Below, piece after piece: positions 3,001 to 20,384 of a DNA stretch of 64,000 nt; within the stretch, counting starts at the first letter, position 1; each line of letters starts with the position of its first letter. Below the pieces are notes generated by a model. That model was given only the letters and a program-made list of their open reading frames with translations, was not told where the DNA came from and made no database searches. The translations under genes were made by a program, and so were the position numbers. The DNA lies in NCBI GenBank assembly GCA_004297305.1, contig SCTR01000009.1, positions 124,001-188,000 on the forward strand. The letters are read 5' to 3'. This DNA comes from Actinomycetota bacterium. Lineage in GTDB: Bacteria > Actinomycetota > Actinomycetes > S36-B12 > FW305-bin1.

Positions 3001-3397
3001 CAACTACGAAAACCGCTTCAACCACTGGGCGCTGGACTGGCGACTCGGGCTTGACGTCGTGGATCTTGTGCTCGGGCGCAGTCTCGACTTATCCCGCTGG
3101 TCGGATCGCACCGCGACGTTGATGCAGAGCTTCGCTGATGGCTACGGTCCACACCTGCGAATCGAGCAGCACACGGTGAACGGCCTGCCAGCACTCGTCT
3201 CGCCGGAGGGTCGTGGGGCGGCTGTCGTCATCGGCCACCCGCTTTGGCGGCACGAGGACGCACACTGGAATCCAGAGGTGCGCCGGGCTGTAACCGAGCT
3301 TCGCGGGAGAGGCCTGTCGAGCGTCGCGGTCTCTGACACTTATGTCCTCGATCGGACCCCTATCAAGCTGTTCAACGCGCTACTTGAGGGGGTATAA
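2..3397 (+). CDS. Large DEAD/DEAH helicase with DUF1998 zinc domain, N-terminus outside window
   Basis: The reading frame is open to the left edge, so only the C-terminal ~1130 residues are seen and the ATPase half (Walker A/B) lies outside the window. Visible are a RecA-like second helicase domain with [27 protein letters not shown] (motif V) and [12 protein letters not shown] (motif VI), a four-cysteine insert (VCDNC ... CTNEEC, around nt 1110-1180), a zinc ribbon (CGQCG ... CSVCGEE, nt 2210-2275) and a C-terminal [19 protein letters not shown] motif typical of DUF1998/MZB domains. The order helicase core, long linker, DUF1998 is that of giant defence helicases such as DruE (Druantia) and DrmA (DISARM); which one cannot be decided without the N-terminus and left-hand neighbours. 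It lies about 0.8 kb upstream of the CRISPR locus on the same strand. It is probably a nucleic-acid translocase in an anti-phage system. Confidence 0.75.
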
Positions 3398-3704
3398 AGG
3401 GTGGCGCCGTGGCAAACAAAGTGGCAACAACCGCTGATGACGAGGCCCGTGTCGGCGCACTTCACGCAAGCCCCCCGGAACACAGTCCGAACGCAGCCGA
3501 CGCGACGACGTGGCTTCTCGCTGGCCCTCTCGCGGCGCACATTCCATGTGCTATCGGGCCCTGCGGAGACAACGTGCACCTGGACGCATTCTGTCAGGGC
3601 CGACATGAGCCGCAACGCCGTGACGACAGGCGAGAACGCAGGCTTCACGGCCCTGCGCGAGAGGGGCTGATCGAGTTCGACTCCCACAGCGTTCGCGGCG
3701 AACA
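3398..3704. other. Stretch without a recognisable gene
   Basis: Downstream of the helicase stop there are only short frames of 89-112 codons on both strands, rich in Arg, His and Pro and with no recognisable domain. I see no clear tRNA, repeat or terminator. It probably contains the 3' end of the helicase transcript and debris flanking the small helix-turn-helix ORF that follows on the minus strand. Confidence 0.4.
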
Positions 3705-4091
3705 TCACCGGGTCTTCGCACACACGGTGCCCCGGTGAACCCCGAACCGTCGCGCCAGCGCGTTAACGCTGATCCCTTGCGCGCGGGCTGTTTGCATAGC
3801 GTCCACTTCCTCGTCCGTGAGACGTGTTCGAGGTCGTCTCCTTGGCTCCGCGGCCGCACCGATGAGCGGATCATCGGGTTCGCTGTCATGATCGCCCGAG
3901 CCGCCAGACCCCTGATTCCACGCGGAAACCAGCCGCTCGACCCGTGGTGGCCTGTTCCCGTAGCGTTCCATTGCGTCCACCCTGTAACTCACGTCGTCCA
4001 CCGTGACGACGATGGCCAGCGAGTTGTTCACAACCGCCTTGTCGGAGACGACCCGGCCTCGTTGCTGGTCCGATCGTGGCCGCGTCTTCAT
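3705..4091 (-). CDS. Small protein with resolvase-like C-terminal helix-turn-helix
   Basis: Minus-strand ORF of 128 codons from the ATG at 4091; the frame stays open to an upstream ATG at 4250. The last ~40 residues (RTRLTDEEVDAMQ ... ISVNALARRFGVHRGTVCAKTR) closely resemble the helix-turn-helix found at the C-terminus of serine recombinases and related small DNA-binding proteins (LT-EEV ... A-G-S---LA--FGVHR-TV). No recombinase catalytic domain is present. The upstream part (SLAIVVTVDDVSYRVDAMERYG) is not recognised. It may be an intact small regulator or the tail of a degraded recombinase. It is transcribed toward the helicase and away from cas3, and the longer ORF version would overlap the cas3 start. 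Moderate doubt remains about whether it is expressed. Confidence 0.4.
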   Translation of the reverse strand: MKTRPRSDQQRGRVVSDKAVVNNSLAIVVTVDDVSYRVDAMERYGNRPPRVERLVSAWNQGSGGSGDHDSEPDDPLIGAAAEPRRRPRTRLTDEEVDAMQTARAQGISVNALARRFGVHRGTVCAKTR

Positions 4092-4236
4092 CTTTGTCGG
4101 TCCGGCGGCGTAGTGTCCGTCGCCTGGCAGACCCGATCGGTAGGGATTGCCACGGGGCTGGAACTCGTCGGCACGATGCGCGGTTCCACGGCAATGGGGG
4201 GCGACGATTCCAGACCGACCCAGCTCAACGGACGAC

Positions 4237-6540
4237 GTGCTTGATCGCACTCTGCGCAGGCCGCTGTGTAGCGATCCTGATCTCTACGCTCACACGCCGC
4301 CGCTGAGTGCCCCAGGGCGTTGGCATCTTTGGCGATCGCATTCGCTCGAGGTCGGGCGTCTCGCCGGAGACTTCGGCCGCCCATTTGGCGCAGATGCCCT
4401 CTGCCGCCTCATGGGCATCACCCACGACGCAGGCAAACTGACGGACGACGTGCAGCAGGCTCTGCGTCGTCGAGCTGGTGACCACCGTGGCAGGCTCGGT
4501 ACGCCGCATAAGGTTGAAGGTGCTGCACTGGCTGGGCTCTTGATGGAGGCAGGCAAGGTGGCGGCGGCCAAGGCAATGGCCTTGGCCAACTGGGGCCACC
4601 ACGGCGGCATCCCTGATTGGGGCGGCAGCGATGCCGCTGAGGCGCTCGGATTCATGCAGGACAATCCCACCTACCTCGACGACTTGGTCGCTCTGGTCGA
4701 CGACGAAACCTCAACGAATCTGCGGGAGCTCGCATCGTCCGTGGAGTTCCCAGGGTGGATAACGAGCCCTGCTCAACTCGAGATGTTCACCCGCATGTGC
4801 CATTCGGCGCTGGTCGATGCGGACTTCCTCGATACAGAAGCACACTTCCGCATGCTGTCAACACCGAGGCAGACCAGCGGGTTTGGGATCGAAAGGTTGC
4901 GCGCGACCTTCGAGGCGACGTACGAGCAGCGCTATTCCCCGCCTCCGGGCGGGGCGCCGACCGACCTCGGGCGACTGCGATGGCACTACTTCAACGAGGC
5001 ACGCAGGGTCGGAGGCAGCACGCCCGCGGTCGGCGGAGCGATCTTTCGTCTTCCCGCGCCTACGGGGAGCGGCAAGACGATGGCGGCCGCCGCCTTCGCA
5101 CTTGCCCATGCAGCGCGATTCGGCAAGCGCCGTGTCGTGGTCGCGGTGCCGTACACCTCGATCACGACGCAGAACGCGCAGGAGTATCGACATATGTTCC
5201 ACGAACTCGGCGACGAGGTTGTTCTGGAGCACCACTCCAACATCGTCGACGACGAGGTAGCGGACGACGAGTGGCGCCGATTTGCTGCCGCGAACTGGGA
5301 CGCCGAGTTCATCGTGACCACGACGGTTCAGCTGCTGGAGTCGTTGTTCTCGAACCGTCCATCGGCCACCCGCAAGCTGCATCGATTGGTGAACTCGGTC
5401 GTCGTGATCGACGAGGTGCAGTCGCTCCCGATCGACCTGCTACCGGCCATCTTGCGGATGCTGAAGGAGTTGAGCGCCCACTATGGGGTGACGTTCCTCC
5501 TCGCCTCGGCCACGCAACCGGCGTTCTGGAGCCTCGACGAGTGGCGTAACGTCCCGATGGTCGATCTGATGCCTGTCAGCGATGTACCGGTCGTCGCTCG
5601 ACGTGTCGACTACGACGTGCGCTCCACCCAGCAGTCTTGGGATGAGATCGCCGCCGAGGTCGGTAGCCAAGAGCAGGCTCTCGTCATCGTGAACACCACA
5701 GGTGACGCCCAGCGGCTGCATGACACGCTGACGGCTGCTGGAACGTCCGGCCGACCGGTGCGGCATCTGTCTACCCGTATGTACAACGCCCACCGAGCGG
5801 CAGTCTTGGACGAGGTCAAGTCGCTCCTGGCCGAGGGCCAGCCCGTGCTGCTGGTCTCGACGCAGCTGATCGAGGCTGGGGTCGATATCGACTTTCCGGT
5901 CGTCTATCGCGCGTTGGCGCCTGCCGATTCGATCGTCCAAAGCGCGGGCCGCTGCAATCGCGAGGGACGACTTGCTCAGCTCGGTCGCGTGGTCGTCTTC
6001 CATCCCACGGATGGCCATACGCCGGGGGGTCGCTATGCCAGCGCGACCGAGGTCACACGCTCGATGTTCGTTGACTGGGCTGAGCGGGCCGGGGTCCGCG
6101 GCGAGAGACCAGCCAAGCTCGGCGACCCGCATTGGATGGAGGAGTACTACCTACGGCTCTACCGCGATCGTTACGGGGCGGCGGCCCGTACAACGGGTGT
6201 TGAGATCAATGGGTACCGAGACGACCTCGCTTTCGTGCGGACATGCGAGCGCTTCCAGCTCATCGACGACGTGTCAGTCTCCGTCGTCGTCAACGACGGC
6301 GCGGACTCGTCAGGCCGCCTGGACTCCCTGCTCGACGAGCTGCGAAGCCCGGCTCATCTGCTGAGTCGTTCGGACCGGCGGCTGCTGAGCAGCGTCGCTG
6401 CCAGCGCACCTGCATGGAGCGTCCATGGCCAGTCAGCTCTGGTCGAGAAGCTGGCCGCCGGCCCGATCCTGTGGACCGGCGGCTACCACCCGCACGTTGG
6501 TCTCCTTCTGACGGAGGAGGGCGGTGTGACGGTGTGGTGA
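4237..6540 (+). CDS. cas3: CRISPR-associated nuclease-helicase Cas3 (type I-C)
   Basis: Cas3 is the effector recruited by Cascade to unwind and degrade invader DNA. The N-terminal HD nuclease domain shows H35 (WRSHSLE), H63-D64 (THDAGK), H91 (HKVEG) and HH121-122 (NWGHHGG). The SF2 helicase follows with Walker A PAPTGSGKT (~275), the Walker B-like VVIDEVQSLP (~390), motif III LLASATQPAF, motif V STQLIEAGVDIDFP (~542) and motif VI QSAGRCNREG (~570). I chose the GTG at 4237 (767 aa) because family similarity starts just after it (YAHTPP ... W ... H); the frame is open further upstream to an ATG at 4147, but that stretch looks non-family. It is the first cas gene, separated from cas5c by an unusually long 198-bp gap, while all later cas genes overlap or nearly touch. 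Its own promoter should lie upstream of 4237; none is obvious. Confidence 0.93.
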   Translation: MLDRTLRRPLCSDPDLYAHTPPLSAPGRWHLWRSHSLEVGRLAGDFGRPFGADALCRLMGITHDAGKLTDDVQQALRRRAGDHRGRLGTPHKVEGAALAGLLMEAGKVAAAKAMALANWGHHGGIPDWGGSDAAEALGFMQDNPTYLDDLVALVDDETSTNLRELASSVEFPGWITSPAQLEMFTRMCHSALVDADFLDTEAHFRMLSTPRQTSGFGIERLRATFEATYEQRYSPPPGGAPTDLGRLRWHYFNEARRVGGSTPAVGGAIFRLPAPTGSGKTMAAAAFALAHAARFGKRRVVVAVPYTSITTQNAQEYRHMFHELGDEVVLEHHSNIVDDEVADDEWRRFAAANWDAEFIVTTTVQLLESLFSNRPSATRKLHRLVNSVVVIDEVQSLPIDLLPAILRMLKELSAHYGVTFLLASATQPAFWSLDEWRNVPMVDLMPVSDVPVVARRVDYDVRSTQQSWDEIAAEVGSQEQALVIVNTTGDAQRLHDTLTAAGTSGRPVRHLSTRMYNAHRAAVLDEVKSLLAEGQPVLLVSTQLIEAGVDIDFPVVYRALAPADSIVQSAGRCNREGRLAQLGRVVVFHPTDGHTPGGRYASATEVTRSMFVDWAERAGVRGERPAKLGDPHWMEEYYLRLYRDRYGAAARTTGVEINGYRDDLAFVRTCERFQLIDDVSVSVVVNDGADSSGRLDSLLDELRSPAHLLSRSDRRLLSSVAASAPAWSVHGQSALVEKLAAGPILWTGGYHPHVGLLLTEEGGVTVW

Positions 6541-6589
6541 GCGTGCCTAACCCACTAGGTGTTGAGACTCCCGCCCGGTACGGGCGCAC
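6526..6589 (-). ncRNA. Candidate CreR/CreA-like crRNA: solitary degenerate repeat plus spacer-like guide
   Basis: Read on the minus strand from 6589 to 6561, this 29-nt element begins GTGCGC and ends GGGAGTCTCAAC, identical to the first 6 and last 12 bases of the array repeat. Between these, the array hairpin is replaced by a shorter one, GCCCG/CGGGC with loop TAC. The bases that follow (6560 downward) begin ACCTAGTGGGTTAGGCA and run into the antisense of the cas3 3' end. This guide matches a TTC-flanked site at 6687-6697 upstream of cas5c at 10 of its first 11 positions. Cas5c should recognise the hairpin and release the GGAGTCTCAAC-type handle. The 3' end is set here for a 35-nt guide by analogy with the array spacers and is not known. 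By analogy with CreR or CreA guides, it would direct Cascade to bind but not cleave, repressing cas5c-cas2. Confidence 0.6.
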
Positions 6590-6686
6590 ACGGAACTATG
6601 CCGTTCAAGTCGCCGCGCGCCTTCGGGCACCGGCAGCGACCAGAAGCCCGCATCTCGCTCGCCGAAGATCGAACATAGTTGCCTGT

Positions 6687-6700
6687 ACCCAGTAGGTGAA
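6687..6700 (-). promoter_or_regulatory. Predicted Cascade binding site (PAM plus seed) in the cas5c promoter region
   Basis: On the minus strand, TTC (6700-6698) is followed by ACCTACTGGGT (6697-6687). The guide of the solitary repeat at 6561-6589 starts ACCTAGTGGGT, so only position 6 differs, and position 6 is flipped out and not read in type I R-loops. TTC is the established type I-C PAM. After a one-base offset both sequences continue AGGCA. The site is 39-52 bp upstream of the cas5c ATG, overlapping or adjacent to candidate promoter elements (TTGCCT 6679-6684, TACGGT 6705-6710, CATAGT 6673-6678). Cascade bound here would block transcription of cas5c-cas8c-cas7c-cas4-cas1-cas2. Confidence 0.55.
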
Positions 6701-6738
6701 CAGGTACGGTACGCTGCTGCGAGAGTGGAGGAGGACTG

Positions 6739-7434
6739 ATGAGCGGGTCGCATCACAGCTGGGCCGAGGTGGCCACCGGAGGACCGTTCCGGTACTCCAG
6801 TCTCAAGGTGGAAGCCAGCGGGGATCTCGCCTGCTTCACGCGCCCGGAGCTGGCCAGCGAGCGGGTGAGCTATCCGATCATGACCCCGACGGCCGCCGTC
6901 GGCCTGCTTTCTGCCGTCTTCTGGAAGCCACAGTTCCGTTGGGTGGTTGAGCGCATCGACGTGCTCAAGCCGGTCAAGTGGACCACATTCCGGCGCAACG
7001 AGAGCGGCTCGGCGATCACTCGTGACCACGTTATGCGGGGGTACTTGGACGTCGACGACATGGTCCAGCAGCGGATGACGACGATGTTGCGCGACGTCAG
7101 CTATCGGATCCACGCCAACGTTAGCGTCCACCCCGAGGCTGATGAACAGGACCCCGCGAAGTGGCGGGATCAGTTCTTGCGACGAGTGAAGCGCGGCCAG
7201 TCCTTCCGCCAGCCCTTCCTGGGGATGCGCGAGCTCCATGCCGACGTCGTCGAGGCGGGAGACTCTGCGCCAGTCCAGTGGGACGAGGATCTCGGCATCA
7301 TGCTGCACTCAATTTCCTACGACGAAGGCACCGGCGCAGAGGCCTACGACTGGTTCGAGGCCAAGGTCAGCAACGGCGTGATGGAGATTCCGCGCAGCGG
7401 ACTGATGGCCGAACGCAGCGAAGGGACGGCGTAG
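6739..7434 (+). CDS. cas5c: Type I-C Cascade subunit and pre-crRNA endonuclease Cas5c
   Basis: 231 aa; Cas5d/Cas5c family RAMP. Type I-C has no Cas6, and none is present here, so this protein should cut pre-crRNA at the base of the repeat hairpin and then stay on the 5' handle. Family signatures are visible: GPFRYSSLKVE near the start, ERVSYPIMTPTAAVGLLSAVFWKP (Tyr45 sits where the catalytic tyrosine is expected), and RVKRGQSFRQPFLGMRE toward the C-terminus. A strong ribosome-binding site (GGAGGAGG) precedes the ATG at 6739. It is the first gene of a tightly packed cas5c-cas2 operon, with only 3 bp before cas8c. Immediately upstream is the predicted Cascade autoregulatory site. Confidence 0.94.
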   Translation: MSGSHHSWAEVATGGPFRYSSLKVEASGDLACFTRPELASERVSYPIMTPTAAVGLLSAVFWKPQFRWVVERIDVLKPVKWTTFRRNESGSAITRDHVMRGYLDVDDMVQQRMTTMLRDVSYRIHANVSVHPEADEQDPAKWRDQFLRRVKRGQSFRQPFLGMRELHADVVEAGDSAPVQWDEDLGIMLHSISYDEGTGAEAYDWFEAKVSNGVMEIPRSGLMAERSEGTA

Positions 7435-7437
7435 CCC

Positions 7438-9258
7438 ATGCTTCTTCGCGCGCTGAACCAGTATCGCGGCGACGACGATGTCGTCCCAGTCGGCTACGCT
7501 CGCAAGGCCGTCGGCTTCGTCCTCCAGATCGAGCCGGACGCGAGAGGCTGTTCGTTGCACTCGCAGTACGAGGTGGACGCAACGGACGACGGCAAGCAGA
7601 GGCGTGTCGCGCCGACCCGACTGGTTCCCAATATCGTCCGCACGTCCGGCCCTGTCCCGATGCTTGGGTGTGACAACGCCGGTTACGTCCTTGGTCGACC
7701 AAAGCCGGTGGACGACCCAGCCAAACTCGCCAAGGAGGCTGCCGTCGCGCAGCTCAAGGCACAGCTGTTCGACCAGCTCATCCAGGAGTACGCGAGTCAT
7801 ACTGGCGATGATGACGCTTGGACCTTCCTGCGTTGGCGCGAGAACGGATCGCCGGGCGTCCTCGATAGCGTCGGCCGGCTAGACGACTTCAGCGTCAAGC
7901 GCCTCGACCTTGATCTGATCCAGATTCAGGTCGGCGCATCCGGTCCAATTCATTTCAAACCGGCAGCGCAGCAGTTCTGGAGTGCCCGGGCAACCTCGTC
8001 GAAATCGGGGAGTACGACGAGCATTTGCCTGAGCTGCGGCCAGCTCCGGCCCGTAGTCGACACGCTTCCACAGTCGTTGACCGGAGCGCTGATACCGGCA
8101 ACGTCGACCTCGAACGTCGCGCTGTTGAGTGTCAACTTCGCAGCTGCGTCACGCGGCGCGTCTGGCACCGGCCTCAGGTCTGCGCCGATCTGTGCCGAGT
8201 GCGCCTCCGGAGCCGTATCAGCTTTCAACACTCTCGCCGCCTCGGAGACCAATCGTTGGGGTGGCAGAAGCGACGACCGCGCGACGATCTGGTGGACTAC
8301 TGGCACGACCGATGACATCAACGTCCTTGAGAATCCCGATCCCGAGCGCGTTCGGCGCTTTTATGAGGCGGCGGAGAGTGGACGTCGGCCGCTTGGTGTC
8401 TTGAAGAAGCGGGATGCCGAGAGGTTCTACGCACTCACATTCTCCGGCAATGTCGCTCGCCTGGTCATCCGGGACTGGATCGACCTGCCGCTCGACAATG
8501 TCAGCGCGAACGTGGTCGCGTGGTTTGAAGCAAGCGCGACGCCCGATCCGGCGCACGAGTACTTCGGGATCTCCGAGATGGCTCGGAGCTGCGGGGACTT
8601 CGTTCCCTCCGATGGCCTCTACTCCGCCATGCCAGAAGGCTCGCGGGAGGCTCTCCTGCGGTCCGCGTTGGCTGGCGCGGACTTGCCGCACAACATGCTC
8701 ACACGTGCTGTGAACCGGGCTCGTGCCGAGATCCACTACACGTCACTGGCGGACGCTCGCCAAGCCGGCGTTGTGCGTCGCCGCGCAAGCGCCCGCTTCG
8801 CCGTTATCCGTCTCATGCTGAACCGGTGGAAACCCAAGGAGATCGCCTTGCCCAAGTATCTCGATGAGGACCTCGATGACCCCGCATATCTGTCTGGCCG
8901 ACTGTTTGCGGAGCGGGAGTCACTCCAACACCAAGCGCTCGGAGATGTGAACTCCTCCATAGCGGACCGCTTCTTCGAACGTGCCTCCGCCAGTCCTATG
9001 AGCGTCGAACACTCGCTGGCGGCGCTGGAGAAGCAGCACCTGAAGGCATTGGCGCGCAGCGGCAAGCGCGAGGCCGCCGTCGCCATCGACAAGCGGCTCG
9101 GCGCACTCCACGAGCGAATCAGAGTTCAGGAGATTCCGAAGCGGATGCCAGTGGAGCAGCAGGCTCTCTGGATTTCTGGCTACTACCAGCAGCGGCAGGA
9201 GAACTTCCGAATGGCCGCGCAACGAAAGCAGAGCCCAACGAATACTGAGGATGACTAA
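7438..9258 (+). CDS. cas8c: Type I-C Cascade large subunit Cas8c (Csd1)
   Basis: 606 aa, within the usual size for Csd1/Cas8c. It is expected to recognise the PAM and recruit Cas3; in many I-C systems an internal start within the gene also yields the small subunit Cas11. The N-terminus LLRALNQYRGDD-DVVPVGYARKAVGFVLQI is family-typical. Two cysteine pairs, SICLSCGQ (around nt 8024) and PICAECASG (around nt 8190), could bind zinc. The C-terminal ~200 residues (YLDEDLDDPAYLSGRLFAERESLQHQALGDVNSSIADRFFERASASP) match the conserved helical part of Csd1 from which Cas11c is translated; I do not assign that internal start. The position directly after cas5c supports the call. Confidence 0.92.
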   Translation: MLLRALNQYRGDDDVVPVGYARKAVGFVLQIEPDARGCSLHSQYEVDATDDGKQRRVAPTRLVPNIVRTSGPVPMLGCDNAGYVLGRPKPVDDPAKLAKEAAVAQLKAQLFDQLIQEYASHTGDDDAWTFLRWRENGSPGVLDSVGRLDDFSVKRLDLDLIQIQVGASGPIHFKPAAQQFWSARATSSKSGSTTSICLSCGQLRPVVDTLPQSLTGALIPATSTSNVALLSVNFAAASRGASGTGLRSAPICAECASGAVSAFNTLAASETNRWGGRSDDRATIWWTTGTTDDINVLENPDPERVRRFYEAAESGRRPLGVLKKRDAERFYALTFSGNVARLVIRDWIDLPLDNVSANVVAWFEASATPDPAHEYFGISEMARSCGDFVPSDGLYSAMPEGSREALLRSALAGADLPHNMLTRAVNRARAEIHYTSLADARQAGVVRRRASARFAVIRLMLNRWKPKEIALPKYLDEDLDDPAYLSGRLFAERESLQHQALGDVNSSIADRFFERASASPMSVEHSLAALEKQHLKALARSGKREAAVAIDKRLGALHERIRVQEIPKRMPVEQQALWISGYYQQRQENFRMAAQRKQSPTNTEDD

Positions 9259-9259
9259 C

Positions 9260-10138
9260 ATGGCTTCTTACACGGATCCCACCGTCAAGCACGACGCGCT
9301 GCTGCTGTTCGAGGCGGTCGACTCCAACCCCAACGGCGACCCCGACAACGCGGGCAAGCCGCGGACCGATCTCGAGACCGGGCATGGCCTTGTGTCTGAC
9401 GCCAGCCTGAAGCGGAAGGTCCGCGACGTGGTGCAGTTCCAGGTCGACGAGGGGATGCTCTCACCTGCAGATCGCTACCAGATATTCATCCGGCGTGGCG
9501 TGTCGCTCAACGCGCAGCTAGAAGACGCGTACGGCGCCCTCGGGCAAGCGACCGGCAAGGGCGCCAAGGCGGACTTTGTCGCGAAGAGCGCCGAATACAT
9601 GGTCGCGCGCTACTTCGACGTACGGATGTTCGGTGCAGTGATGAGCACAGGCAATGCCTCTGCCGGTAAAGTTACCGGACCGGTGACAGTCGGGATTGCC
9701 CGATCGCAGGATCCAGTGTTGCCGATCGACATGGGCATCACGCGTACCGCGTCGACACAAGAGGAGAAGAAGGACAACGCGTCCCAGATGGGAAACAAGT
9801 CTGTCGTCCCCTTCGGACTCTACGTCTGTCGGGTCCACTACCAGCCTACGCGGAACAATCAGGTCTCCGAGGAGGATCTTCAGGTCCTCTGGACGAGCAT
9901 GGCGAACATGTTCGAGCTGACTCGAAGTGCCGCGCGTCCCGACATCTCGGTTCGCAACTTGTTTGTCTTCAGTCACTCGACCTCGCTGGGCAATGCGCCA
10001 GCGAGGAAGCTATTCGACAGCGTCACGATCGCCAAGGTGTCCGACCTCGACCTGCCCAGGACGTCGACTGACTACACAGTGACGCCGCCGGCGGCGAAGT
10101 CGCTACCGGACGGGGTGACCTTGACAACGGTTGTATAG
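9260..10138 (+). CDS. cas7c: Type I-C Cascade backbone Cas7c (Csd2)
   Basis: 292 aa from the ATG at 9260, which has GAGGA 8 nt upstream; an ATG at 9251 in the same frame overlaps the end of cas8c and is less likely. The N-terminus HDALLLFEAVDSNPNGDPDNAGKPRTD and GHGLVSDASLKRKVRDVV are signatures of the Csd2/Csh2 Cas7 family, RNA-recognition-fold proteins that polymerise along the spacer part of the crRNA. The stretch YFDVRMFGAVMS and the later VPFGLYVCRVHY are also typical. It sits between cas8c and cas4 in the canonical I-C order. Confidence 0.93.
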   Translation: MASYTDPTVKHDALLLFEAVDSNPNGDPDNAGKPRTDLETGHGLVSDASLKRKVRDVVQFQVDEGMLSPADRYQIFIRRGVSLNAQLEDAYGALGQATGKGAKADFVAKSAEYMVARYFDVRMFGAVMSTGNASAGKVTGPVTVGIARSQDPVLPIDMGITRTASTQEEKKDNASQMGNKSVVPFGLYVCRVHYQPTRNNQVSEEDLQVLWTSMANMFELTRSAARPDISVRNLFVFSHSTSLGNAPARKLFDSVTIAKVSDLDLPRTSTDYTVTPPAAKSLPDGVTLTTVV

Positions 10139-10140
10139 CT

Positions 10141-10722
10141 GTGGCGCTCGTCGACCAAGAGGACGCGTGGTTGCGATTGTCCACGCTGCAGCATTTCGCA
10201 TACTGTCCGCGGCAGGCGGCGTTGCTCATCGACGGCGTGTGGGCGGACAACTACTTGACCGTTCAGGGAACCGCGGGTCATGAGCACGTTGACTCGGGCA
10301 AGACTGACTATCGTCGAGGTGCGATCGTCCATCACCGAGTTCCGCTGGTGTGCCACCGCTGGAGGATCCGGGGCGTTGCCGATGCGATTGAGCAGGATGC
10401 GAATGGAACCTTGATGCCCGTGGAGCACAAGCGCGGGCGAGGCGCCGGCGACGAGTTCCCGAGTATCGTTCAGGTAGTTGGTCAAGCGCTCTGCCTTGAG
10501 GAGATGCTCGGGTCAACCGTCCCGGAGGTGGCGCTGTACATCACCAAGGAACGGCGCCGCGATCGCTACCGGACCGACGACTATCGGACTCGGGTTATCG
10601 CTCTAATCGAAGAGGCCCGAGTGCGGCTCCGTGGCCATATTGATCCAATCTTTCAAGCTCGCCTGTGCACGTCGTGCAGTGTGCAGAACGCTTGTCAACC
10701 ACGCGGAGCGCAGTGGCGATGA
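10141..10722 (+). CDS. cas4: CRISPR adaptation exonuclease Cas4
   Basis: 193 aa from a GTG two bases after the cas7c stop. RecB-like nuclease with an iron-sulfur cluster: Cys22 in FAYCPRQ at the N-terminus and the C-terminal CTSCSVQNAC supply four cysteines. Catalytic residues lie in GVADAIE (Asp) and VEHKRG (Glu-x-Lys), with the QVVGQALCLEE motif following. In type I-C, Cas4 works with Cas1-Cas2 to trim prespacers and to select and orient those with the TTC PAM. Its 3' end overlaps cas1 by four bases (ATGA), which implies translational coupling. Confidence 0.93.
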   Translation: MALVDQEDAWLRLSTLQHFAYCPRQAALLIDGVWADNYLTVQGTAGHEHVDSGKTDYRRGAIVHHRVPLVCHRWRIRGVADAIEQDANGTLMPVEHKRGRGAGDEFPSIVQVVGQALCLEEMLGSTVPEVALYITKERRRDRYRTDDYRTRVIALIEEARVRLRGHIDPIFQARLCTSCSVQNACQPRGAQWR

Positions 10723-11735
10723 CTGCGTACTTCCTGCGTACCCTGTTTGTGCACACCGCCGGTACGCGTCTCGTCCTCGACGGGGACTCTGTGCGTGCCC
10801 TCCGGGACGGCGCGCCACCTCGGAGACTCCCACTGAATGCGATCGACTGCATCACAGTACTGAGCGGGATAGACGTGTCGACTCCATTGCTCACACGCTG
10901 CGCTGCCGACGGCCGGACAATTGCGATCCTCAGCCGGTACGGAAAGCCGCAGGCGGTGGTGGAGGGTCCTGATAGCGGGCGCGGTCGGTTGCGGCGCGAA
11001 CAGTATCGAGCCCATTTCGACGAGGGACGACGTGACGATCTCGCCAGGTCGATCGTCGACGGAAAGATCATCCAGATGAGGTGGGCGATACGTCAGTGGA
11101 AGCGGGACGCTGCGCCGACGGAGGCTGGTCTCCTCGATGCGACGGCGACGGCATTGAACGAGGATCGGGAAGCTTTGGTTGGCTCGTCGCGAGCACAGGT
11201 GCTTGGAGTCGAGGGTGCCGCGTCGCGCAGGTATTTCTCGGGCCTAGCCGTGGCCCTCAAGTCACAAGACTTTCCGGGACGTCAGCGTAGGCCAGCTCTC
11301 GACCCCATCAACACCGTCCTCTCCTTCTTGTATTCGATGACGCGACTGTCCGTGCATGGCGCGGTGCACGCCGCCGGACTGGATCCGTTCTGCGGCTTCC
11401 TTCACGGTGATCGTGACAGTCAGCCGTCACTAGTGCTGGATCTCATGGAAGAGTTCCGTTCTGCCGCAGACCGTGTGGCAGTCTCGCTATTCAACCGGCG
11501 ACAGCTTCGTGACGAGCACTTCGAGTCAGCGCTTACTGGAGCAGTAACTCTATCGGAGAGTGGTCGCGAGACTGTCATGAGCGCGTGGCATCAACATCGG
11601 ATGCAGGAAGTCCGCTTGAAGGCGGCGCGGATGCCGATTCCGAATGCGGCGATCCCAATCGTCCAGGCAAACCTGATGGCCAACGCTATTCGCTCTGGCG
11701 GGGTATATGTTGGACACGAGTTGGTGATCCGATGA
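10719..11735 (+). CDS. cas1: CRISPR integrase Cas1 (type I-C)
   Basis: 338 aa from the ATG at 10719, which overlaps the cas4 stop as ATGA; the family-typical opening TAYFLRTLFVHTAGTRLVLDGD supports this start over in-frame upstream codons. The metal-binding catalytic residues are recognisable: Glu165 (GVEGAASRRYFSGLA), His229 (GFLHGDRDSQPSLVLDL) and Glu244/245 (DLMEEFR). With Cas2 and Cas4 it inserts new spacers at the leader end of the adjoining array. The size of that array, with its duplicated and paired spacers, suggests that adaptation was active in the recent past. Confidence 0.95.
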   Translation: MTAYFLRTLFVHTAGTRLVLDGDSVRALRDGAPPRRLPLNAIDCITVLSGIDVSTPLLTRCAADGRTIAILSRYGKPQAVVEGPDSGRGRLRREQYRAHFDEGRRDDLARSIVDGKIIQMRWAIRQWKRDAAPTEAGLLDATATALNEDREALVGSSRAQVLGVEGAASRRYFSGLAVALKSQDFPGRQRRPALDPINTVLSFLYSMTRLSVHGAVHAAGLDPFCGFLHGDRDSQPSLVLDLMEEFRSAADRVAVSLFNRRQLRDEHFESALTGAVTLSESGRETVMSAWHQHRMQEVRLKAARMPIPNAAIPIVQANLMANAIRSGGVYVGHELVIR

Positions 11736-12022
11736 ATGTTGTCGTCGCCTACGATGTCTCGACCGCTACAGCTGCAGGCGAACGTCGGCTTAGGCGGGTG
11801 GCAAGGATCTGTGAAGGTTACGGGCAGCGCGTTCAGTACTCCGTGTTTGAGGTGGTCTGCTCTCAGACAGACTTGGCGAAACTGGTAGCGAAGCTGGAAG
11901 ATGAGATCGAGCCAACAGAGGATAGCTTGCGGCTCTATCCAATCCACGGCAGCGACCTCGGCAGCGTGATTCAGCTCGGTCGGCGACGTGATATCCCGAA
12001 TGAGGATGCCTGGACGCTGTGA
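11732..12022 (+). CDS. cas2: CRISPR adaptation protein Cas2
   Basis: 96 aa from the ATG at 11732, overlapping the cas1 stop as ATGA. Small ferredoxin-fold protein that bridges two Cas1 dimers. NVVVAYDVST (Asp8) and VQYSVFEVVCSQTDLAKL are classic Cas2 features, and DSLRLYPI matches the fourth strand. It is the last gene of the operon; the CRISPR leader begins directly after its stop. Confidence 0.95.
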   Translation: MNVVVAYDVSTATAAGERRLRRVARICEGYGQRVQYSVFEVVCSQTDLAKLVAKLEDEIEPTEDSLRLYPIHGSDLGSVIQLGRRRDIPNEDAWTL

Positions 12023-12145
12023 GAACCGCCAGTGATGCTGTCGTGAGCGGCTCTCGCTCAGCACACCGGTGCCGATTGGCAACTTCAGTCACACCGGGTG
12101 GGCCTGCGTACTATGGGTCTCGCGCGTCCGGCCAGGTCAGATGCG
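12023..12145 (+). promoter_or_regulatory. CRISPR leader
   Basis: 123 bp between the cas2 stop and the first repeat. Its orientation is set by the decayed repeats at the opposite end of the array. A TACTAT hexamer at 12109-12114 is a plausible -10 element that would start the pre-crRNA about 25 nt before the first repeat; the -35 is poor (TTGGCA at 12076 is 27 bp away). No integration host factor site can be called by eye. Confidence 0.6.
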
Positions 12146-15100
12146 GTGCGCTCCGGCATCAAGTCGGAGTGGGAGTCTCAACCCGAAATCTCACGCCCGG
12201 TCGAGTGACCCTGGCACGGTGCGCTCCGGCATCAAGTCGGAGTGGGAGTCTCAACATGCGCGACCACTTGTCCTCGTCCAGCGGGTTCGATCCGTGCGCT
12301 CCGGCATCAAGTCGGAGTGGGAGTCTCAACACCTACGCAGGCCTGTTCGCGGTGCTCGGCACGGTGTGCGCTCCGGCATCAAGTCGGAGTGGGAGTCTCA
12401 ACAAGCTGACCGGCTCCCAGGTCGAGCAACTGCTGCCCGTGCGCTCCGGCATCAAGTCGGAGTGGGAGTCTCAACATCATCCTCATGGCCGCGCTGTGAC
12501 CGCGCCTGTGGTGCGCTCCGGCATCAAGTCGGAGTGGGAGTCTCAACAGGGCCTCCTTCCCCGGGACGAGCCGGGGTACAGCGAGTGCGCTCCGGCATCA
12601 AGTCGGAGTGGGAGTCTCAACCCTCGACCACGACAGGCTCCCTGCCCTCGTCGTGAGTGCGCTCCGGCATCAAGTCGGAGTGGGAGTCTCAACGGCCGCG
12701 CCACTGGCGTGTCGACGGTCGTGCCGCGGTGCGCTCCGGCATCAAGTCGGAGTGGGAGTCTCAACCTCGCCAACTCCCCGTACAACCCCGACCGGTTCTA
12801 GTGCGCTCCGGCATCAAGTCGGAGTGGGAGTCTCAACGCTGGGGTGGGTCTGCTTTTGGGTGTGCGACACCACGTGCGCTCCGGCATCAAGTCGGAGTGG
12901 GAGTCTCAACCCCCGGTATTGGGCGCGGCGTGAAGGCGTCATCGGGAGTGCGCTCCGGCATCAAGTCGGAGTGGGAGTCTCAACGAGGCCGCCGCGACCG
13001 GCACCGTCAACTACGTCCTCGTGCGCTCCGGCATCAAGTCGGAGTGGGAGTCTCAACCACGGCTCGGGCGCCGTCCAGAACTCGACTGTGTTGTGCGCTC
13101 CGGCATCAAGTCGGAGTGGGAGTCTCAACATCACCACCGTCGGATTCGTGAGCGACAAGAGCGGTGCGCTCCGGCATCAAGTCGGAGTGGGAGTCTCAAC
13201 CCTACCCGGCACACACAGGGCAGGCCCCACCATCGGTGCGCTCCGGCATCAAGTCGGAGTGGGAGTCTCAACGAGTCCATCCGCGGGAGCCCAGCACCAC
13301 CACTCGTGTGCGCTCCGGCATCAAGTCGGAGTGGGAGTCTCAACGCCACCCGTCGACCCGGTACTGGCGAGCGTCCGTGTGCGCTCCGGCATCAAGTCGG
13401 AGTGGGAGTCTCAACACGATGTTCACGATCACGGTCCCGGCCGGGGCGCGGTGCGCTCCGGCATCAAGTCGGAGTGGGAGTCTCAACTCTCTCCTGGTGC
13501 CACGTCTGGTGTTCCTGCCACGGTGCGCTCCGGCATCAAGTCGGAGTGGGAGTCTCAACACTCACCGACGACACGCGCTCCGCCACGTCGAAGATCGTGC
13601 GCTCCGGCATCAAGTCGGAGTGGGAGTCTCAACACCGGTGTGGTTGGTCGGCCGTTCCCCCGTTGACGCGTGCGCTCCGGCATCAAGTCGGAGTGGGAGT
13701 CTCAACCCAGGTCACTCTCGGCTCCTGGCCGACGAGCGGGTGCGCTCCGGCATCAAGTCGGAGTGGGAGTCTCAACCTCCCGCGCTTTGCGCCGGGGTAG
13801 GCGGATGACGGGTGCGCTCCGGCATCAAGTCGGAGTGGGAGTCTCAACTGGATCGCCTCCTGGTCCGCGTCAGGCGCGAGCTTGTGCGCTCCGGCATCAA
13901 GTCGGAGTGGGAGTCTCAACACCCTCGGCGACACGTTGCCGTCGCGCACGATCCAGTGCGCTCCGGCATCAAGTCGGAGTGGGAGTCTCAACGCCACCCG
14001 TCGACCCGGTACTGGCGAGCGTCCGTACGTGCGCTCCGGCATCAAGTCGGAGTGGGAGTCTCAACCTCAGCTCACGCAGGCCGGCCGGGCTGTCGGCGAC
14101 GTGCGCTCCGGCATCAAGTCGGAGTGGGAGTCTCAACTCGATGAAGCCCGCGCCGGAGTCCAGCCACGTCGGTGCGCTCCGGCATCAAGTCGGAGTGGGA
14201 GTCTCAACCCCATCGCGCTGGCGATCTCCAACCCGGAGAACGTGTGCGCTCCGGCATCAAGTCGGAGTGGGAGTCTCAACGCGCTAGGTGCAGTAGGTAA
14301 TGGTGCTGTGTGCGGAGGTGCGCTCCGGCATCAAGTCGGAGTGGGAGTCTCAACGAGTGGGACGACTCGACAGCTGCCGACGCCTACCGGTGCGCTCCGG
14401 CATCAAGTCGGAGTGGGAGTCTCAACCTCCGTGATGTGGTCGATGTGGTCAAGCGCGGGCTCGTGCGCTCCGGCATCAAGTCGGAGTGGGAGTCTCAACC
14501 GGCGCGCCTGGAACCGCTGGGAGGCGTCCCTGCAGTGCGCTCCGGCATCAAGTCGGAGTGGGAGTCTCAACACCCCCGCCCGGGTGAGCCGCTCGACCCC
14601 GTTCGTGTGCGCTCCGGCATCAAGTCGGAGTGGGAGTCTCAACTTGTCCCTGGCGTTTCGCCCGCAGACCTCGACGGTGCGCTCCGGCATCAAGTCGGAG
14701 TGGGAGTCTCAACCCGAGAATCCACGTCACGACCTCTTGCAACTTCATGTGCGCTCCGGCATCAAGTCGGAGTGGGAGTCTCAACAGGTCCCCCCACAGG
14801 GGGTGCCGGAAGGCCGGCCGGTGTGCGCTCCGGCATCAAGTCGGAGTGGGAGTCTCAACCGTCGTGGAGCCGCACGTAGGTGCGCCGATCCGCCATGTGC
14901 GCTCCGGCATCAAGTCGGAGTGGGAGTCTCAACCAGGAGGTCGCCGACGGGCGCACGGACACCGAGCGTGCGCTCCGGCATCAAGTCGGAGTGGGAGTCT
15001 CAACCCCTTACCCGTCGCGTACCTGGCGCGGGTGGCGGGGTGCGCTCCGGCATCAAGTCGGAGTGGGAGTCTCAACTCCAGGTAGGCGGCGGGCAGGACG

Positions 15101-18100
15101 ACCTGCAGGGTCGTGCGCTCCGGCATCAAGTCGGAGTGGGAGTCTCAACGCGAAGTTCCCCGCGCTGGCCGACTCGACCGCGGAGGTGCGCTCCGGCATC
15201 AAGTCGGAGTGGGAGTCTCAACTACGTGCGTGATCCGAACGTGCTACCGATCGTGTCGAGTGCGCTCCGGCATCAAGTCGGAGTGGGAGTCTCAACGCTG
15301 GTGAGCCTCACAGCGACGCCCCGGCGTGTGTGTGCGCTCCGGCATCAAGTCGGAGTGGGAGTCTCAACATCGACACCGCTTGGCAAGCCATCCAGACCTC
15401 GATGTGCGCTCCGGCATCAAGTCGGAGTGGGAGTCTCAACTCCGCCGCGCGCGCGTTCGCTTCGGCTTGTGCGCTGGTGCGCTCCGGCATCAAGTCGGAG
15501 TGGGAGTCTCAACTTGGCGCACGTCCTGTTGCCCGACGGCACAACGGTGTGCGCTCCGGCATCAAGTCGGAGTGGGAGTCTCAACTAAGGATGGTTCGGG
15601 TGTCGCAGGCGACACCCCTGTGCGCTCCGGCATCAAGTCGGAGTGGGAGTCTCAACACTGCACACGAGCGAGCCGTCCGATTCGTCGTGACCGTGCGCTC
15701 CGGCATCAAGTCGGAGTGGGAGTCTCAACCCGGTGATCCGCTCAGGCAGAGGTTCTCCAAGTGGAGTGTGCGCTCCGGCATCAAGTCGGAGTGGGAGTCT
15801 CAACATGGCCCGGTCGATGCCGGCGCTGATCGTGACCTTGTGCGCTCCGGCATCAAGTCGGAGTGGGAGTCTCAACACGCGGTCGTCAAGGCCGCGCACG
15901 ACGTAGCCGCGGTGTGCGCTCCGGCATCAAGTCGGAGTGGGAGTCTCAACCCGACGCCGACCAGGCCGCCCGCGACGCGGACCGGTGCGCTCCGGCATCA
16001 AGTCGGAGTGGGAGTCTCAACCTGGTCGAAGTTCCCCGCGACCGAACCGGTGTCTTTGTGCGCTCCGGCATCAAGTCGGAGTGGGAGTCTCAACACCGTC
16101 GATCAGTGGAACGCCCTGGACTCCGACCGAGTGCGCTCCGGCATCAAGTCGGAGTGGGAGTCTCAACGGTACGGCGCGCAGCCCGGTTCGCAGGCGACAC
16201 CACCGGGTGCGCTCCGGCATCAAGTCGGAGTGGGAGTCTCAACCGCCCAGGCGAGAAACGCCTCGTCGTCGTCGATGTCGTGCGCTCCGGCATCAAGTCG
16301 GAGTGGGAGTCTCAACTCCGCAGCAGCCCGGTCAGCAGCACGTCGAGCCGCGGTGCGCTCCGGCATCAAGTCGGAGTGGGAGTCTCAACATCGCCCAGCA
16401 CTACGGCAACGGGACGGCGGCGACGTTGTGCGCTCCGGCATCAAGTCGGAGTGGGAGTCTCAACCGGGCATACGCCGCGACCCGAGTCACGGCGTCCGTG
16501 GGTGCGCTCCGGCATCAAGTCGGAGTGGGAGTCTCAACCAGAACACCGTGAGTTTGCTCGCGGTTCCGTTGGCTGTGCGCTCCGGCATCAAGTCGGAGTG
16601 GGAGTCTCAACACCGTCGGCGTGCCCGACATCCCGCATCTGGCGGGGTGCGCTCCGGCATCAAGTCGGAGTGGGAGTCTCAACAACGTGGCCAAGGGCCG
16701 TCTCGGCCACCTGGCGACTGTGCGCTCCGGCATCAAGTCGGAGTGGGAGTCTCAACGTCGACGAAGGTTGAGGTCGAGGCCGGCCGTGAAGTGCGCTCCG
16801 GCATCAAGTCGGAGTGGGAGTCTCAACGGTACCGAAACGATGTCCTTGCCAGCAGTCCCGAGGGTGCGCTCCGGCATCAAGTCGGAGTGGGAGTCTCAAC
16901 CGCGGCATCGACGCGACAGTCAACGCGGTAGGCCCCGGTGCGCTCCGGCATCAAGTCGGAGTGGGAGTCTCAACCTGAAGCTGAACGACACTCTCACCGT
17001 CGATGCCAGTGCGCTCCGGCATCAAGTCGGAGTGGGAGTCTCAACGCGAAGCGCGGGAAATGCTCGCCGCTGTCTGGCCGGTGCGCTCCGGCATCAAGTC
17101 GGAGTGGGAGTCTCAACCATTTCGCCACAGTGGATGACCTGATCGAGCACCTAGTGCGCTCCGGCATCAAGTCGGAGTGGGAGTCTCAACTCCCGGACGA
17201 CGTCGGTCACCACGGTGATCATGCCGTGCGCTCCGGCATCAAGTCGGAGTGGGAGTCTCAACGCGACGCTCGCGAGATGCTCGCCGCTGTCTGGCCGCGT
17301 GCGCTCCGGCATCAAGTCGGAGTGGGAGTCTCAACAGGTCGTGGAGCCGGGCCAGAGCATCGTGCAAGGTGGTGCGCTCCGGCATCAAGTCGGAGTGGGA
17401 GTCTCAACTACCGCTGGCACTGGACGCCGGCAGTGACCCGCGTGTGCGCTCCGGCATCAAGTCGGAGTGGGAGTCTCAACGTACTCCGAGCTGCTGGGCG
17501 TGACGCCATGGGTGGTGTGCGCTCCGGCATCAAGTCGGAGTGGGAGTCTCAACCGGCGGCGGCGCAGAGCATCCGGCTTCGGCGGGGGTGTGCGCTCCGG
17601 CATCAAGTCGGAGTGGGAGTCTCAACAGCGTCATCGGACTGCGCGACGACGCTGGTGTGAGGTGCGCTCCGGCATCAAGTCGGAGTGGGAGTCTCAACAG
17701 CCGCACCGACTTGGAGCAGATCGTCGCCGACGGTGCGCTCCGGCATCAAGTCGGAGTGGGAGTCTCAACAAGGTGGCGGACTGATGCAATCCAACGAGAC
17801 CCTGCGTGCGCTCCGGCATCAAGTCGGAGTGGGAGTCTCAACCCGACCGCGATATGCACCTCGCCGGCGCGCTGCTCGGTGCGCTCCGGCATCAAGTCGG
17901 AGTGGGAGTCTCAACGCTGCCGCTCTGCGAACCACCGTTCGATCGTCGGCCAGTGCGCTCCGGCATCAAGTCGGAGTGGGAGTCTCAACCGGTAGGACGG
18001 CGGCCATGCTTGGCGTTCTTCGTCCGTGCGCTCCGGCATCAAGTCGGAGTGGGAGTCTCAACTCCGGCCCGGCCGTCACCCACTGCACGACGTGGCGGTG

Positions 18101-19380
18101 CGCTCCGGCATCAAGTCGGAGTGGGAGTCTCAACTCCCGGCACGACGAGTAGCCCCGCACCGGTCGGTGAGGGTGCGCTCCGGCATCAAGTCGGAGTGGG
18201 AGTCTCAACTCCTCGACCCGGTAGGCGAACCCCGCGACCCGCAGGCGTGTGCGCTCCGGCATCAAGTCGGAGTGGGAGTCTCAACACGTCCAAGTCAGTG
18301 CCGCCGTCAGTCTTGACCTTGTGCGCTCCGGCATCAAGTCGGAGTGGGAGTCTCAACTCCGTCGCCCCCGTAACCGGCGACCTGTGCTCGATGTGCGCTC
18401 CGGCATCAAGTCGGAGTGGGAGTCTCAACTTCACGCGCTTCATGTGCCTTGGCCTGGAGTACGTGTGCGCTCCGGCATCAAGTCGGAGTGGGAGTCTCAA
18501 CTCCGAGAAGGCGAAGCAGATGATGCGCGACGCGCAGTGCGCTCCGGCATCAAGTCGGAGTGGGAGTCTCAACCTCGCCTGGGCGGAATCGGCTGGTCGT
18601 GAGGACTTGTGCGCTCCGGCATCAAGTCGGAGTGGGAGTCTCAACGCCGATGGCGTCCACGACCGGCACTCGTGGACCGTCAGTGCGCTCCGGCATCAAG
18701 TCGGAGTGGGAGTCTCAACCTGATGGGGTACCTGAACGCCGACAAGGGTCGGCTCGTGCGCTCCGGCATCAAGTCGGAGTGGGAGTCTCAACACCGCCAG
18801 AGTTTGTCGACGGTGAACGGGTCGAGCGCGTGCGCTCCGGCATCAAGTCGGAGTGGGAGTCTCAACACCGTCGGCGACGCGCCGGCCCGCACATTGGCCA
18901 CGGTGCGCTCCGGCATCAAGTCGGAGTGGGAGTCTCAACAACACCAGCAAGGGGCCGTCCTGCTGCACGAGAACCGTGCGCTCCGGCATCAAGTCGGAGT
19001 GGGAGTCTCAACTCCGTCAGCAGGGTGTCGTCGATGTTCGTCTCCGACGTGCGCTCCGGCATCAAGTCGGAGTGGGAGTCTCAACCCGGCCAGGGTGTCA
19101 GTCTTCGCGGCCTGCGCCCCCGAAGTGCGCTCCGGCATGAAGTCGGAGTGGGAGTCTCAACCTCGGTCACGGCGTCACCGCGAACGTCCAAGCGCCATGT
19201 GCGCTCCGGCATCAAGTCGGAGTGGGAGTCTCAACTCGGTCGACGGGAGGGTCATCGGCACCAGCACGAAGCGTGCGCTCCGGCATCAAGTCGGAGTGGG
19301 GGTCTCAACAGGCGGTTTCGGCCGGTCCAGGAGTTCCAGCGAGGTGCGCTCCGGCATCAAGTCGGAGTGGGAGTCTCAAC
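12146..19380 (+). CRISPR. CRISPR array, 100 intact 37-nt repeats
   Basis: I counted 100 repeat starts from 12146 to 19344, at intervals of 70-76 bp (spacers of 33-39 nt). The repeat starts GTGCGCTCCGGC and ends GGGAGTCTCAAC. It folds as CTCCGGC/GTCGGAG (7 bp including one G-U) around the loop ATCAA, leaving 13 nt 3' of the stem, of which about 11 would form the crRNA handle. Two repeats near the far end carry single changes: the one at 19125 (ATGAAG for ATCAAG) and the one at 19273 (GGGGGTC for GGGAGTC). The repeat has no stop codon in any forward frame, so long false ORFs run through the array. Spacers 17 and 26 (13345, 13993) are the same sequence with different ends; spacers 68 and 71 (17046, 17263) are homologous. 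The leader is on the left, next to cas2. Confidence 0.99.
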
Positions 19381-19413
19381 ACGATCCTCCGCCACGGCGG
19401 ACCGGCACTAAGA

Positions 19414-19513
19414 GTGCGCTCCGGCGATAGGTCGGAGAGGAATCTCGCTCCGGACCCAGGGTACGTACTCTGCTCCGGGTCCCGGCGTGCTCTGGCATCA
19501 AGATCCGCGAAGC
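19414..19513 (+). repeat. Two decayed CRISPR repeats at the leader-distal end
   Basis: At 19414 the first 12 bases of the repeat (GTGCGCTCCGGC) and TCGGAG are intact but the loop and 3' part are changed. At 19487, exactly 73 bp on, a second relic reads GTGCTCTGGCATCAAG, with a 2-bp deletion and further drift. They mark the oldest end of the array. Confidence 0.75.
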
Positions 19514-19577
19514 AGGCGCCTACGGAAGCGAACCTCCAGTCGACCCGCTGGCGCAGCCGGGTCGAGGCCGTGTCGTA

Positions 19578-20384
19578 TCAGAGCCTCATGTGGCACAGGA
19601 TTTCGCCGTGGAGGACGGAGAACCATCCGTCTGGGGCCTCCGCCCACCGTCGCCAGCCGGCACTGATGCGTTCGAGGTCATCCTGGGTGGCCATCCCGGA
19701 GGTGACGACCTGCGTCGCCATCGCCGACTGCAGGATCCGGGCCTGCCATACCCCGCCCCACCACTCGCGGTCCTCGGGCGTCGAAAAGCACCACGTGCTG
19801 GAGGTCGCGGTCACGTCTCTGAGACCGGCCACGTGCGCCCATGACAGCAGCCGTCGACCGGCGTCGGGCTCGCCGCCGTTGGCCCGGGCGGCACGCTGGT
19901 ACAGGTCCATCCACTCGTCGAGTTCCGCGATTCTCGGGAACCAGGAGAACGCTGCATAGTCGCTGTCGCGCACCGCGACTAGCCCGCCTGGCTTCGTCAC
20001 CCGTGCCATCTCCCGCAGCGCCTGGACCGGGTCCCCGACGTGCTGGAGTACCTGGTGAGCATGCGCCACGTCGAAAGTCCCGTCCTCGTAGGGAAGTGCG
20101 CCCACGTCGGCCACATCGAACGCGACGTTCGTCTGGCCGCGCTCGGCGGCGGTGGCTTTGGCCAGCGCCAGTTCGTCCGGCCCGACTTCGGTGGCCGTGA
20201 CGCGGCGTACGCGCTGGGCGAGGTCCGCCGTGATCGTCCCGGGCCCGGCGCCCACGTCGAGCACGTGGTCGTCACGCGTCAGATGCGGCAGCACATAGGC
20301 GGCGGAGTTCTCCGCGGTGCGCCAGCGGTGCGAGCGAAGGACGGACTCGTGGTGTCCGTGGGTGTAGGTGGCCTCGCGTCCCAT
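19578..20384 (-). CDS. Class I SAM-dependent methyltransferase
   Basis: 268 aa from the ATG at 20384, chosen for its GAGGAGAG ribosome-binding site; an in-frame ATG at 20402 lacks one. The SAM-binding motif DVGAGPGTITADLAQ (motif I), ATEVGPDEL (motif II), DVGALPYEDGTFDVAHAHQVLQHV and EMARVTKPGGLVAV are those of the UbiE/MenG-like methyltransferases. The C-terminal third (STPEDREWWGGVWQARI) resembles a widespread actinobacterial subgroup whose substrate is unknown. It is divergent from the XRE regulator at 20504, with which it shares a 119-bp intergenic region, so that regulator may control it. Confidence 0.8.
   Translation of the reverse strand: MGREATYTHGHHESVLRSHRWRTAENSAAYVLPHLTRDDHVLDVGAGPGTITADLAQRVRRVTATEVGPDELALAKATAAERGQTNVAFDVADVGALPYEDGTFDVAHAHQVLQHVGDPVQALREMARVTKPGGLVAVRDSDYAAFSWFPRIAELDEWMDLYQRAARANGGEPDAGRRLLSWAHVAGLRDVTATSSTWCFSTPEDREWWGGVWQARILQSAMATQVVTSGMATQDDLERISAGWRRWAEAPDGWFSVLHGEILCHMRL

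Follow-up and report, generated by a model that had tools for sequence, protein, structure and literature searches.

Type I-C CRISPR-Cas systems comprise Cas3, Cas5c, Cas8c, Cas7c, Cas4, Cas1 and Cas2 and recognize a TTC protospacer adjacent motif (PAM). The seed of type I systems spans positions 1-5, 7 and 8 (PMC5071653), and in type I-E systems a mismatch in the seed may block interference while permitting priming (PMC13122317). A close parallel to the spacers considered here comes from the type I-C system of Legionella pneumophila Toronto-2005, where pairs of spacers against the element LME-1 were taken to reflect an escape to which the host responded with primed re-acquisition (Rao et al., 2016, PMC5071653, Fig. 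7B).

The window analysed here, a stretch of 64,000 nucleotides, carries a type I-C CRISPR-Cas locus with a complete cas set and a single array, laid out as follows.

4147..6540, + strand: cas3 (TIGR01587, TIGR01596)
6739..7434, + strand: cas5c (TIGR01876)
7438..9258, + strand: cas8c (csd1; TIGR01863)
9251..10138, + strand: cas7c (csd2; TIGR02589)
10141..10722, + strand: cas4 (TIGR00372)
10665..11735, + strand: cas1 (TIGR00287 over its cut-off; best E-value for TIGR03640, Cas1c)
11732..12022, + strand: cas2 (PF09827, TIGR01573)
12023..12145, + strand: putative leader region, from cas2 to the first repeat
12146..19380, + strand: CRISPR array, 100 repeats of GTGCGCTCCGGCATCAAGTCGGAGTGGGAGTCTCAAC and 99 spacers
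19414..19450, + strand: degenerate terminal repeat at the trailer end

Compared with type I-C systems generally, the gene set and its order are alike, and TTC is also found at the protospacer of spacer 70 (see below); the point of difference is Cas8c, which matches TIGR01863 (E 2.5e-62) with 211 bits, slightly below the curated cut-off of 218.65 bits, whereas the profile scores of Cas5c and Cas7c exceed their cut-offs. The repeat of 37 nt is also distinct from that of the Legionella system, which measures 32 nt and has a different sequence. A scan with Cas8c for related loci found none, and a genome-wide search placed the repeat in the array only (12146-19380), within a genome of 2.68 Mb in 13 contigs. 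Perfect copies make up 98 of the 100 repeats, the 2 substitutions in 3,700 repeat bases both lying at the trailer end (19125 and 19273), and the spacers are 33-39 nt long. Since the cas operon and leader are found on the upstream side of the array and the degenerate terminal repeat on the downstream side, spacer 1 was the last to be gained and spacer 71 predates spacer 68, which bears out the polarity given in the initial annotation. A further stretch of 33 nt precedes the degenerate repeat, so that the array may once have had a 100th spacer. Separately, a 16S rRNA match at G000 C2:233398-234754 consists of two abutting pieces (model positions 9-873 and 875-1387), with the 3' end missing.

Two of the spacers, each flanked by perfect 37-nt repeats, are the subject of this analysis.

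17046..17080, + strand: spacer 68 (newer), 35 nt, GCGAAGCGCGGGAAATGCTCGCCGCTGTCTGGCCG
17263..17298, + strand: spacer 71 (older), 36 nt, GCGACGCTCGCGAGATGCTCGCCGCTGTCTGGCCGC

The two are identical at 31 of 35 positions with no offset, differ at positions 5, 8, 11 and 14, and share their 5' start, with one additional 3' base in spacer 71. Parsing of the array and pairwise comparison gave exactly the coordinates, common start base, identity and positions of difference that had been noted earlier. An all-against-all comparison of the spacers (4,851 pairs), with three Markov-shuffled arrays as the control, returned only this pair and spacers 17 and 26 (34/34 identical) as related. The score of the 68/71 pair is 25, the third-best pair reaches 8.5 and the shuffled arrays 7.5-10, and the likeness is thus far above chance.

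All four mismatches between spacers 68 and 71 fall in one codon phase, for which simple combinatorics gives a chance of 0.025. As a yardstick, 79 homologous actinophage helicase regions were aligned and segments adjoining a TTC shared by the two aligned sequences were compared; among the 2,511 segments with exactly four differences (over 82 sites, and hence not independent), the differences share a single codon phase in 37% and are confined to the first 14 nt in 4.3%. The one-phase pattern is what coding DNA is expected to give, and the crowding of the mismatches at the seed end is mildly unusual, an observation made post hoc. Read forward, the spacers encode (E/D)AREMLAAVWP, with three of the four changes synonymous and one conservative. 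This translation, reported in the initial annotation, is right, but the annotation omitted the reverse-strand frame, which uses the same wobble positions and reads GQTAASISRAS in both spacers, so that by direct reading of the sequence 4/4 changes are synonymous. In contrast, a 3-periodic Markov model that had learned from actinophage genes, and whose accuracy for a single 35-mer is 83%, favours the forward over the reverse strand by 2.1 and 3.0 nats for the two spacers. Synonymy and the Markov model thus point to opposite strands as the coding one.

Because the two spacers start at the same base, differ by changes at wobble positions and have different lengths within an array of stable repeats, they are best read as having been acquired separately, from a coding site that two related elements have in common, a reading to which we assign a probability of about 0.85. 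The earlier proposal, acquisition from the same gene site of two related phages, stands on these grounds as far as the two captures of one coding site are concerned; the phage as donor, the gene and the strand are presumptive. In mechanistic terms, Cas4-Cas1-Cas2 would have cut beside one TTC motif, giving both spacers the same first base, and imprecise trimming of the far end would have left 35 nt in spacer 68 and 36 nt in spacer 71. Spacer 71 would have been gained first, followed by spacers 70, 69 and 68; between the captures, or between co-circulating lineages, four consecutive wobble positions would have changed, leaving the protein nearly or fully unchanged. The second capture may have been provoked by weakened interference, since two seed mismatches could prime, or may simply reflect the same site being sampled again by chance where few phages were around.

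The evidence for the PAM and for a phage connection comes from a spacer between the two.

17191..17225, + strand: spacer 70, matching an actinophage DNA helicase/methylase gene

In Arthrobacter phage EvePickles, the helicase/methylase gene agrees with spacer 70 at 33/35 positions, with TTC directly 5'; Mycobacterium phages agree with it at 31/35, and the matched phage sites are preceded by TTC or TTT. Many actinophages and IMG/VR contigs carry this site, with TTC at 93 of 101 matching sites, which share one conserved codon and so amount to approximately one independent case of the PAM. When all 99 spacers were compared with ca. 0.95 Mb of phage and related loci, spacer 70 alone matched at this sensitivity. 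Through spacer 70, the assignment of TTC as the PAM is supported, and with it the seed end and orientation are fixed for the array. The TTC that the initial annotation placed upstream stands in this sense, as the PAM of the array; beside the 68/71 protospacer the TTC is inferred, as is the phage donor. The actinophage match of spacer 70 makes an actinophage donor plausible for its neighbours. The 68/71 site is absent from the spacer 70 phages and from the whole contigs examined, so a common donor for spacers 68-71 is conjectural.

Isolated phages, plasmids, IMG/VR, GTDB genomes, ca. 900 sampled relatives and the organism's own genome yielded no protospacer for either spacer 68 or spacer 71, and the search of actinophage genomes suggested with the initial annotation, using both spacers and the peptide to seek a coding protospacer flanked by TTC, likewise found none. 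Degenerate peptide patterns on both strands, in strict and relaxed form, gave best matches in IMG/VR of 23-27 of 35-36 nt, without TTC; one of these pattern matches (L007) was rejected as a baseplate-type gene in another frame. Matches at 35-36 nt in isolated phages had E values of ca. 0.4 or worse, and the forward-frame phage candidates (mycobacteriophage methyltransferase fragments, a Rhodococcus phage head-tail adaptor and a Gordonia phage gene) were set aside at 20-26 nt with other peptides. No match was returned by tblastn with the forward peptide, by a pattern scan of GTDB or by the whole array against plasmids, and genomes of 119 order relatives, 396 of the phylum and 395 of the class gave chance-level matches only. 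The forward peptide resembles two unrelated families at 9/11 residues, MuB-like AAA+ ATPases (DVREILAAVWP) and a HIT protein (DTREMLAAAWP). The two MuB-like transposition proteins (L130 and L138), which were also among the best IMG/VR pattern matches, lack TTC and do not fit at the DNA level. Because two unrelated families reach the same score and neither fits the DNA, (E/D)AREMLAAVWP is not diagnostic of the donor gene.

The second related pair in the array serves as a comparison.

13345..13378, + strand: spacer 17, 34 nt, identical over 34 nt to spacer 26
13993..14028, + strand: spacer 26, 36 nt, same site as spacer 17

Here one protospacer gave rise to two spacers trimmed differently at the 3' end, and the difference in length (34 versus 36 nt) argues against duplication within the array; the repeated, independent gain of one spacer that is treated in PMC8047081 is alike in that an identical site appears twice in one array. 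The protospacer of this pair was not found in IMG/VR (25-nt core) or, outside the array, in the order relatives. Two same-site pairs among 4,851 correspond to a pool of ca. 2,400 sites (95% CI ca. 670-20,000), which at 30.8 TTC sites per kb equals one to two phages of 40-60 kb (interval ca. 0.4 to 16). Roughly this number of same-site pairs would already arise if one or a few phage lineages were sampled at random. The members of the pairs are 3 (68/71) and 9 (17/26) spacers apart, with p of ca. 0.03 for both falling within 9, and this proximity in the array suggests that each pair falls within one short period of exposure.

A more specific form of the two-capture reading was put forward in the initial annotation, namely that the phage changed its seed under pressure from spacer 71, that interference failed while priming occurred, and that the escaped variant was captured as spacer 68. 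As a special case of the two-capture explanation it does not compete with it for probability, and it is possible but doubtful. Two of the changes are at seed positions 5 and 8, where mismatches should make interference less effective, and the 14 nt nearest the PAM contain all four, an arrangement found in only 4.3% of the four-difference segments from homologous phage genes, although this p-value is post hoc and the segments are not independent. The Legionella type I-C precedent was so interpreted (PMC5071653), and seed mismatches in type I-E systems can block interference yet allow priming (PMC13122317). On the other side, one seed change is enough for escape, while four synonymous changes resemble the divergence of lineages, and random sampling is in keeping with how many same-site pairs there are. 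In fact, no escape by change in the seed or elsewhere in the spacer region can have occurred in the 17/26 pair, and because this identical site was captured twice in the same array, re-capture does not need escape. The proposed escape of the variant through seed changes is weakened on these counts.

The two spacers might instead derive from two paralogous or repeated copies of a gene in one element, both captured in the same period. The separation of spacers 68 and 71 by just three units would accord with this, and no donor genome is in hand that would exclude it; a second copy was not present in the phage and viral records searched, none of which is the donor, and we regard this origin as improbable.

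Lower still in probability is a donor in the chromosome of another actinobacterium, a HIT-domain gene beside pgsA, captured during uptake of DNA from relatives. In one genome, the sequence coding for the C-terminal end of a HIT protein (LLGDTREMLAAAWP) matches spacer 71 at 30/36 nt and in frame.

L191 1491-2315: C-terminus of a HIT-domain gene beside a phosphatidyltransferase-like (pgsA-like) gene, 30/36 nt to spacer 71, chance-level

With the presumed PAM included, the spacers read (L)R(E/D)AREMLAAVWP, which resembles the end of the HIT protein. However, where both spacers encode A at the (E/D)-A-R position, 61 of 65 distinct HIT genes encode T and the other 4 encode S, TTC stands at the PAM position in none of the 65, and the HIT gene of the organism's own genome matches at just 22/36. 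The MuB-like peptide is equally similar (9/11), and with 395 genomes searched the match is no better than chance, one control match having arisen in the same search. The HIT gene was rejected as donor on the finding that 0/65 distinct genes have the A codon or TTC. That the pair records a housekeeping gene of the HIT/pgsA region captured from two related actinobacterial species, and not from phage, is rated marginally lower again; were it true, the pair would be a CRISPR memory of DNA exchange between bacteria.

The weakest alternative, that the spacer 71 unit was duplicated and one copy then mutated within the array to become spacer 68, follows the frequent reading of repeated spacers as duplications (PMC8047081) but has next to no probability, as the adjoining repeats are perfect, changes confined to wobble positions have no meaning inside an array, and the rate observed in the repeats predicts 0.02 mutations in 35 nt (p of ca. 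5e-9 for four); divergence within the array is excluded by the low count of repeat substitutions together with spacer lengths one base apart.

Read as two captures of one coding site, spacers 68 and 71 are a further example of the pattern already published for Legionella type I-C, and represent a clean but ordinary renewal of immune memory against a diversified invader. Re-capture alone is no evidence of escape, which is a caution for studies that read homologous spacer pairs in that way. An array with one wobble-diverged pair and one identical pair is a compact natural record from which the pool of phages met by the host can be estimated. In both organisms, two spacers of different age in one type I-C array are directed against overlapping sites of one element. 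In Legionella the older spacer is mismatched in the seed or PAM, and here likewise two of the four mismatches are in the seed; the Legionella element has been identified and is matched perfectly by the newer spacer, whereas here the pair is known without its donor. Unlike the Legionella pairs, both spacers here start at exactly the same base and all four changes are at wobble positions, and what this locus adds to the known pattern is an unusually clean wobble signature together with an internal control, the 17/26 pair.
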